Shown here in pieces: positions 1,864-56,562 of a stretch of 64,000 nt of DNA. Both the position numbers and the translations under genes were made by a program. Origin of the DNA: Planctomycetota bacterium (GTDB lineage: Bacteria > Planctomycetota > UBA1135 > GCA-002686595); contig JAJDEU010000056.1 in NCBI GenBank assembly GCA_029259635.1, positions 62,001-126,000 on the forward strand, given 5' to 3'. The notes below the pieces were generated by a model, which saw nothing but the letters and a program-made list of their open reading frames with translations, made no database searches and was not told the origin of the DNA. Each line of letters starts with the position of its first letter. The first letter of the stretch is position 1.

Positions 1864-2459
1864 CCCTTGCCGAATCCTTCGGGAAGCTCATCGGCATAGG
1901 GCGTCATCTCCGGCTCCAGGTCAACGTGAACCGCATCGGCCACACGGTTGATGTAGTTGAAGTAGCTCACGACTTGGATGGCATCGTGAATGCTGTCGTC
2001 GTCGAGCCCCAATTGCTGCAGCGCTTCCACGTCCAGCTTCGTCATCGCGGCCGGCGAGCGCGTGAGCTTCTCGGCATAGCTGCAGAGAGCATAGTCCACT
2101 CCCGCGAGCCCGGCCGTTCGCCAGTTGCTCGCCAAGCGCTCCAAGAAGGACTCTCGCTCGGCGCTCTCCATTTCCGGCATCTCATCACGGAGATCACCTG
2201 CGTGCGCCTGAGTTCAGTAATGGCAATCGTTGGCAGCGCTGGTCACGACGGCCAGCATTTCGCGCTGCATTCGAGAGAGCCCGCCGCGGCGAAACATCAC
2301 GCGTTGATAGAGCATCATCGAACTGTCCAGCACGCTGGGAGCGAGACTCATCGCGCGGACGATCCCGAAGACTCGCCCCGCGCGCTGGATCGCGCTGTCG
2401 TACGATTTCTTTAAGCGGCCACGAGCTTCCTCCGGCGGCACGGTCTTAATCCAGGTCAT
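1860..2459 (-). CDS. AhpD-like peroxidase-related selenoprotein (in-frame TGA as Sec82)
   Basis: Peroxidase-related members of the AhpD/carboxymuconolactone decarboxylase fold use a CxxC...H centre in thiol peroxide metabolism. Here residues 79-86 read C-H-Y-TGA-T-Q-A-H: the TGA (2214-2216) falls exactly on the second Cys of CxxCxxxH. The same frame continues through the family C-terminus (SYFNYINRVADA, HVDLEPEM) to a TGA stop, giving 199 residues, normal for the family. Without readthrough the product would be 81 residues and lack half the active site. A hairpin starts 2 nt after the TGA (2181-2212). The start is the ATG at 2459; the long open frame further upstream is antisense noise from the neighbouring peptidase region. 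Downstream it overlaps the ligase-like gene by ATGA. Selenocysteine is inferred; a TGC/TGT-to-TGA nonsense mutation or base error is the alternative. Confidence 0.85.
2181..2212 (-). promoter_or_regulatory. Candidate bacterial SECIS hairpin of the AhpD-like gene
   Basis: Counting from the base after the TGA, CACG (10-13) pairs with CGTG (25-28), then a C-C mismatch, then AG (15-16) with CT (22-23), leaving a five-base apical loop GTGAT at 17-21 that begins with GU. An outer helix CTCA (2-5) with TGAG (30-33) closes the element. Bacterial SECIS elements lie inside the coding region directly after UGA, with GG or GU in an apical loop roughly 16-37 nt downstream, so position and loop both fit. 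Pairing was done by eye; no folding energy was computed. Confidence 0.6.
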
Positions 2460-54605: not shown

Positions 54606-55706
54606 ATGGAACCGAGGCGCATTTTAATCGCGAGGCTCTCGCACTTGGGCGATGTTGTGTGTGCACTCCCACTCTTTCACACGCTTCGCACCGTCGCCCC
54701 CGACGCCCGAATCGCCTGGGTGGTTCAACCGGAGTTCGCCGGACTGCTTCAGTCGCTGCCCGGTTTGGATCGCGTCATCAAATTCGATCGCAGAGGCCGG
54801 CTCGGCGCATGGCTCAATCTGAAAACGGAACTTCGATCTTTTCGAGCGGATATCGCCATCGATGCGCAGGGCAATTGGAAGAGCGCCGCTGTGATGGGCC
54901 TCTCTCGAGCCCCACGCAAGTTCGGAATGGCCACCGTGGATTGGCGAGAACCTTCCGCTGCGCGCGTCCTCACCGAACAAGCGCCCGCCCTTCCGAATGA
55001 TCAAGCGCACATCATCCAACGAACGCTGGCTCTCTCCCGCTTCGTCGCCGAGAGCCTCGGTGCAGACGCGGACGCCATCACGCCGCGCTTCGATCCGGAC
55101 CTAGCACCGGTGGAACGCGCCCGCGGAAGAGACCTCGCCGATCGCCACTTCCCCGGCGCGAACGGGAGCTCCGTCGTTCTCCACCTCGCCGCGAAGGGCG
55201 ACGTCCGCTCTTGGCCGCCGGACTACTACCGTGTTCTCGCGGAACAACTCTTGGCCAAGGGCCAACGCGTCTTGTTGCTTTCCGGCCCCGGAGAAAAAGA
55301 TCACGGCCACCACCTGCGCCACGTGCTCGGCATGCGGCCGGGGCTCTCGCACTGGATCGACCAAAACAATCTGCGGGAGGCGAGCGCCTTCTTCGCCGAG
55401 TGCGCGCAGCGTTCGATCCCCATGGTCGCCTCCGACTCCGGGTCGATGCACTTGGCCGCTGCGAACGGAGTGCGAGTCGTAACCCTGTGCGGACCTCAAG
55501 ACGCCGCTCGCACCGGACCGTGGCCGGTGGCTCCCGACACGCCTCACCGAACTCTGCGCGCGCAAGATTCTCCAGACTGTGCGCCGTGCTTTTCGCGCAC
55601 TTGCCGCCACCCGAAGGGCAACGTCTGCATGGAGAACATCACGCCGGAAGCCGTCGCCGACCTGTGCCTCTCGCTTGCAGACAGTTCGATCAACTCCACC
55701 GAGTAA
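54606..55706 (+). CDS. Family 9 glycosyltransferase (heptosyltransferase-like)
   Basis: 366 residues. GT9 features: RILIARLSHLGDVVCALPLFHTLR at the start, HLAAKGDVRSWPPDYYRVLAEQLL and the nucleotide-sugar region VASDSGSMHLAAANGVRVVTLCGP. Enzymes of this family add heptose or related sugars to the lipopolysaccharide core on the cytoplasmic face. A Cys-rich tail (CAPCFSRTCRHPKGNVC) is present, as in many members. It is followed 2 bp later by the DUF309 gene. Confidence 0.9.
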   Translation: MEPRRILIARLSHLGDVVCALPLFHTLRTVAPDARIAWVVQPEFAGLLQSLPGLDRVIKFDRRGRLGAWLNLKTELRSFRADIAIDAQGNWKSAAVMGLSRAPRKFGMATVDWREPSAARVLTEQAPALPNDQAHIIQRTLALSRFVAESLGADADAITPRFDPDLAPVERARGRDLADRHFPGANGSSVVLHLAAKGDVRSWPPDYYRVLAEQLLAKGQRVLLLSGPGEKDHGHHLRHVLGMRPGLSHWIDQNNLREASAFFAECAQRSIPMVASDSGSMHLAAANGVRVVTLCGPQDAARTGPWPVAPDTPHRTLRAQDSPDCAPCFSRTCRHPKGNVCMENITPEAVADLCLSLADSSINSTE

Positions 55707-55708
55707 CG

Positions 55709-56206
55709 ATGCGCTACGCACCACAAACAGCCTTTCCGCCCTACGCCTTCCTACCCGGTCGCGATCCGCATCCCACTCGCGATTCGAAGGGGCACTCCTA
55801 TTCCGAGGAACCGGAGCCCGTCGAGATTCACATCGACTCCGACCTCTGGCGAACGAACGTGCCCTTCCTCTACGGCGTGGACCTCTACAACCACGGCTAT
55901 CTCTGGGAAGCCCATGAAGCCTGGGAGAGCATTTGGCATCCCGCAAAGCACGACGAGCAGATGGCCAACTTTCTCCAGGGCTTGATTCAGTGCGCTGCGG
56001 CGTGCTTGAAGATCCGAATGAATCAACCCGCCGGGCTGACCAAGCTCTCCGACCTCGGACTCGGGCGTCTAGAGCGAACGGCCAAAGAAGTCGGACCGAC
56101 CTTTATGGGCGTCGACTTGATCGCCTTTACCGGTGAGATGAGCGAGTTTGTTCGCCGCGCCCCCGAGTCGATCGACGAGCGCCCGCAGATCGAACTTTTG
56201 ATTTAG
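55709..56206 (+). CDS. DUF309 protein
   Basis: 165 residues. The DUF309 core is the helix YNHGYLWEAHEAWESIW with the HExxW motif and QMANFLQGLIQCAAACLK. The frame opens earlier inside the GT9 gene; the ATG at 55709, 2 bp after its stop, is chosen. The biochemical role is unknown. It is convergent with the ArsC-like selenoprotein gene 5 bp away. Confidence 0.85.
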   Translation: MRYAPQTAFPPYAFLPGRDPHPTRDSKGHSYSEEPEPVEIHIDSDLWRTNVPFLYGVDLYNHGYLWEAHEAWESIWHPAKHDEQMANFLQGLIQCAAACLKIRMNQPAGLTKLSDLGLGRLERTAKEVGPTFMGVDLIAFTGEMSEFVRRAPESIDERPQIELLI

Positions 56207-56211
56207 CCGGC

Positions 56212-56562
56212 TCAGTCGAAGTGCTCGGTCCAAGTCACATCGCCGTAGCCGACGATCCACGTTTTTCCCATGCGAATGGCCGGCGCCTTCAGGTTGCCGC
56301 TTCGGCCGAGCACGAGCGCCGCGAGCTCTTCCGCTTCCGGGGCGTCCTTCTTCATATCGACGACAACCGTCTTCTTGCCCTTGGAGACCAAGATGCGGGT
56401 CGCACCCTCGAAGAGCTCGTCGAGCTCGTCCGGACCAATTCGTGTCTTGCGCGCATCCACCGTCTCACGGACGGCTAGCTCTCTTTCGCCGATAAAGGCG
56501 TCCGAGCGCTTGCACCCGGTTCACGACTTGCGGTGATAGTACCAATCGATTCGACGTGCCAT
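56212..56562 (-). CDS. ArsC/Spx-like thioredoxin-fold selenoprotein (in-frame TGA as Sec14)
   Basis: From the ATG at 56562 the frame reads ...DWYYHRKS, TGA (56521-56523), T-G-C: the TGA sits on the first Cys of the redox CxxC (C-T-x-C) of this ArsC-like subfamily, giving U14xxC17. It continues without break through VDARKTRIGPDEL, VDMKKD and the cis-Pro region GNLKAPAIRMGK to a TGA stop: 116 residues, normal for the family. A start downstream of the TGA (GTG at 56460) would leave an 82-residue fragment with no active site. Probable role: selenol/thiol reductase in the cytoplasm. A hairpin with GG in its loop follows the TGA. A Cys-to-stop mutation is the alternative, but the same pattern in a second gene 54 kb away argues against it. 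Confidence 0.85.
56495..56511 (-). promoter_or_regulatory. Candidate SECIS hairpin of the ArsC-like gene
   Basis: AAGCG (10-14 nt after the TGA) pairs with CG-C-CTT (21-26, one bulged C), loop CTCGGA with GG at 18-19. Position and loop fit a bacterial SECIS. A competing helix (2-8 with 13-19, loop CAAG) exists, so this is weaker than the element in the AhpD-like gene. Confidence 0.4.

Follow-up and report, generated by a model that had tools for sequence, protein, structure and literature searches.

On the minus strand of the window (the entire 64,000-nt stretch of DNA analyzed here), a frame opens with ATG at 56562 and, provided that one in-frame TGA is read through, continues to a stop codon at 56214..56212, giving a product of 116 aa with the sequence MARRIDWYYHRKS-U-TGCKRSDAFIGERELAVRETVDARKTRIGPDELDELFEGATRILVSKGKKTVVVDMKKDAPEAEELAALVLGRSGNLKAPAIRMGKTWIVGYGDVTWTEHFD. 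The terminal stop codon is itself a TGA. The internal TGA is codon 14 and falls where a first-pass annotation of this DNA had placed it, at the first redox Cys of an active-site pair. Translated with the standard code, the frame breaks off at this codon, and the longest ORF left downstream is one of 82 aa beginning at GTG 56460, from which the whole UxxC active site is missing; that a start downstream of the TGA would drop the active site had been anticipated in the same annotation. The coordinates are collected in Table 1. No sigma-70-like promoter was found for the gene, and an Rfam scan of its surroundings returned chance matches only.

Table 1. Positions of the features discussed in the text, numbered from the first base of the window
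Feature	Position	Strand	Basis
Putative ArsC/Spx-fold selenoprotein gene	56212..56562	minus	NF041106 match, read-through translation, 42-member alignment
N-terminal coding segment MARRIDWYYHRKS, 5′ of the UGA	56524..56562	minus	protein-level conservation, mainly third-position changes
UGA predicted to be read as Sec, residue 14 of 116, first residue of UxxC	56521..56523	minus	homologue codons
Cys17 (TGC), second redox residue of UxxC	56512..56514	minus	Cys in 53/53 homologues; invariant in 42-member alignment
SECIS-like region, 45 nt after the UGA	56476..56520	minus	family-wide folding versus synonymous-codon shuffles
AhpD/peroxidase-related gene with in-frame TGA at 2216..2214	1863-2954	minus	TIGR01926, 129.7 bits

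A DUF309 gene (55211-56206, plus strand) is convergent with the selenoprotein gene, and the two stop codons lie only a few bases apart. This neighbor is present in just three of the loci examined (the window, L036 and L042). Neighborhood clustering over 54 loci found no constant partner gene, the largest clusters being the selenoprotein gene itself and its other frames.

With Cys in place of Sec, the read-through protein scores 122.7 bits against the NCBIfam model NF041106 ('ArsC family (seleno)protein', ArsC_rel_Se_1), for which the cut-off is 85. The [U/C]xxC motif required by this family is present here as the TGA of codon 14 together with Cys17. All 42 members that we aligned match NF041106, and the window protein shares 33–62% identity with them. 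Positions Y8, R11, Sec14 (shown as C), C17, A37, G86, G89, L91, A93, P94, G99 and G105 are invariant in this alignment. A scan of one genome per species (84,980 species) recovered at least 28 loci with the patterns tried. Matches to NF041106 were obtained in 36 of 61 related genomes, over the cut-off in 32, and 31 of these 32 matches contain one internal TGA.

The codon at position 14 was compared among homologues, as the first-pass annotation had proposed, and it specifies Sec (TGA) or Cys and nothing else. Within a set of 53 distinct homologues that includes the window gene, 51 have TGA and 2 have TGT or TGC; a third Cys form, outside this set, occurs in a genome of the same family (G025). 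The peptide that precedes the TGA (IDWYYHRK) is also conserved among homologues, and differences from the window gene in this segment number 154, 147 and 303 at codon positions one, two and three, respectively. Since these changes are concentrated at third positions, the stretch upstream of the TGA is translated and subject to protein constraint.

The genome that contains the window also encodes the machinery for Sec decoding. Searches with Rfam, SelB and SelD models also give low-scoring matches in control genomes, and only matches over curated cut-offs were counted. By this standard SelA (488 bits), SelB (325 bits, or 363.5 when neighboring in-frame pieces are included) and SelD (326 bits) are all present. 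A single tRNA-Sec match exceeds its gathering score (71 bits), has the anticodon TCA according to ARAGORN, and lies on the contig that carries selA, ∼1.6 kb away from it. The earlier suggestion of a selenium-using genome, to be checked by a search for Sec machinery, is thus well supported. The SelD gene (L019, G000:C1:124619-125548) has an in-frame TGA near its N-terminus, in the context GGUARK, and SelD of this genome is likely to be a selenoprotein itself.

When the window was scanned for TGA codons in redox-like contexts, one further convincing case was recognized by eye. It lies in the AhpD/peroxidase-related gene of Table 1, where the context ...NDCHY-U-TQAH... makes CHYU a CxxU motif, and this gene is likely to encode a second selenoprotein in the window. 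The first-pass annotation had described two unrelated selenoprotein genes of the thioredoxin fold; the number of genes holds, but the only other convincing candidate in our scan is AhpD-like (TIGR01926) and not a thioredoxin-fold protein.

Bacterial SECIS elements lie within the coding sequence, immediately 3′ of the UGA. RNAalifold identified no consensus pairs in 36 ungapped downstream sequences and a fixed-register helix scan gave weak excess pairing only; SECIS-like hairpins seem to vary in register across the family. Because no fixed-register consensus was available, we used a register-free test against synonymous-codon shuffles. In 96% of 51 TGA genes the 45 nt that follow the UGA fold better than the shuffles, with a mean z of −1.40 and an s.e. 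of 0.13, the latter being somewhat too small because the 51 genes are related. In stretches 48, 96, 144 and 192 nt farther downstream, mean z is 0.19, −0.38, −0.11 and −0.17. Taken by itself, the window gene shows a mild effect (−16.0 versus −12.6 ± 2.7 kcal/mol, with 21 of 200 shuffles folding as well). The family-wide excess of folding directly after the UGA is what a bacterial SECIS would be expected to produce. The single-gene shuffle test was not significant for SelD or for the AhpD-like gene, where 108 and 326 of 500 shuffles, respectively, were as good. We also note that loci L071–L078, from records mostly titled Deltaproteobacteria, share a regular hairpin close behind the TGA, GCGTCCAAGTTTCTGGACGC or a near variant of it, whose loop has GT in an early position; this hairpin looks more like the textbook bacterial SECIS than do those of the window's lineage.

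Based on sequence comparison, we estimate a probability of roughly 0.96 that UGA codon 14 is decoded as Sec and that the gene belongs to the NF041106 family. Two other readings of the TGA need to be considered. The window comes from a draft assembly of 62 contigs, where a nonsense mutation or a sequencing or assembly error could have left a broken gene. Both forms of this reading, however, are refuted by the occurrence of the TGA in independent genomes: it is found at the same codon in the 51 of 53 distinct homologues noted above, which span many genera and include some records titled Deltaproteobacteria, and the frame is conserved on both sides of it. The first-pass annotation was right to doubt a chance nonsense mutation, an explanation to which we give virtually no credence. 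The other reading is that UGA has been reassigned genome-wide to another amino acid, or is subject to ordinary suppression, with no involvement of Sec. Read-through of UGA at this codon, and apparently in SelD too, would fit such a reading, but the selenoprotein gene seems to use UGA as its own terminator, the genome has tRNA-Sec, SelA, SelB and SelD, and Cys alone replaces UGA in homologues. Reassignment or suppression is accordingly most improbable.

The window's lineage offers a natural comparison of the Cys form with the presence of SelB. SelB exceeds its cut-off in 58 of the 61 related genomes, the exceptions being G023, G025 and G029. G025 is the sole relative with an NF041106 match over the cut-off and no internal stop; its gene (L079, G025:C191) reads ...RRNNCTGC..., a plain CxxC, and is a candidate for replacement of Sec by Cys with loss of Sec decoding. 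A SelB over the cut-off is likewise missing from the genome of a second Cys form, L067, so that two of three Cys forms (G025 and L067) are in genomes of this kind. The numbers are small, but they suggest that Sec has been exchanged for Cys upon loss of decoding. The Cys form is not always tied to such a loss, as the genome of the remaining Cys form, L065, has SelB over the cut-off. G023 and G029 have kept the TGA form yet have no SelB over the cut-off; their assemblies are fragmented (750 and 700 contigs), and the absence of SelB from them is therefore weak evidence.

A structure model of the selenoprotein has high confidence, with a pLDDT of 92.7 and a pTM of 0.84. Foldseek places Spx first among its matches and ArsC-related proteins next, with modest TM-scores (0.51–0.53 to Spx), and the solved relatives identified by sequence are the putative arsenate reductase 2m46 and Spx proteins. 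The same genome separately encodes an ordinary ArsC with the motifs CxxS, ERP and GRP. That protein has one Arg before its cis-Pro and another in its GR motif; in the NF041106 family these positions hold Ala and Phe or Tyr, respectively. In ArsC these two arginines are part of the arsenate-binding site, and their replacement makes arsenate reduction by the selenoprotein unlikely. The earlier label 'ArsC-like' is thus apt for the fold but does not extend beyond it, given the loss of the two arginines found in the genome's true ArsC.

Could the protein nevertheless be a working ArsC-type arsenate reductase based on Sec? The fold class is the same and there is a weak similarity to Pfam ArsC PF03960 (15 bits, under the gathering cut-off of 24). 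Against this stand a UxxC rather than a CxxS motif, the substituted arginines and the ordinary ArsC encoded elsewhere in the genome, and we consider a Sec-dependent ArsC highly unlikely. A different possibility is a redox sensor of the Spx/MgsR type, binding RNA polymerase and having a Sec-Cys switch in place of Cys-Cys. In its favor, Spx structures rank first by fold and near the top by sequence, the redox pair sits at the same position, and 23 of the 42 aligned members touch the Spx/MgsR model TIGR01617. Scores to TIGR01617 and Spx are nevertheless far below the curated cut-offs (TIGR01617 gives 18.4 bits for the window protein, where 75.05 is required), and an Spx-like sensor seems doubtful to us. 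The more specific idea of a selenium-based transcriptional switch of the Spx type, in which planctomycetes and some deltaproteobacteria would control RNA polymerase binding through formation of a Sec-Cys bond, is a long shot.

We favor instead Sec decoding of an NF041106 protein that probably acts as a selenol/thiol oxidoreductase. In this model, which is proposed from the sequence as regards Sec insertion, redox reaction and substrate, codon 14 would be decoded through SelB and tRNA-Sec(UCA) with the aid of a SECIS hairpin just downstream. The 116-aa product would adopt an ArsC/Spx variant of the thioredoxin fold with a Sec14-x-x-Cys17 site. The substrate attacked by the selenolate could be a disulfide, a thiol or of the peroxide type, and the intermediate would then be resolved by Cys17 as a selenenylsulfide.

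The NF041106 selenoprotein family is already known, and the gene described here is an added member and an annotation correction rather than a discovery. NF041106, with its UxxC motif, is catalogued as 'Arsenate reductase-like protein' in a 2026 review (PMC13188914), and a 2022 review includes 'Arsenate reductase-like protein, UxxC' (PMC9312934). The 2026 review credits the family to its reference 61, the 2008 Global Ocean Sampling survey (PMC13188914), in which one row of a table is 'Arsenate reductase 2, cd03032, UxxC', comprising 42 selenoprotein sequences (PMC2398784). Judging from the motif and the citation, this row is probably the NF041106 family. The present analysis corrects a gene that is truncated or missed by standard-code ORF calling, and brings in a planctomycete-type lineage where Sec decoding, as judged from SelB, is near-universal.

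Among known systems, the closest is NF041106 (ArsC_rel_Se_1) itself: the UxxC motif and the position of Sec are the same, the match covers nearly the whole length and scores over the curated cut-off, and there is no essential difference. At the level of detail, TS is commoner inside the UxxC of family members, whereas the window protein has TG, as well as S13 before the Sec. The glutaredoxin-dependent ArsC proteins (TIGR00014, PF03960) share the fold class and the conserved Pro of the cis-Pro loop, but they have CxxS where the window selenoprotein has UxxC, and it does not keep the two arginines of the ArsC encoded separately in its genome. Spx/MgsR proteins (TIGR01617) share the fold and the position of the redox pair, and differ from the window protein in having Cys where it would have Sec; its score against their model falls far short of the cut-off.
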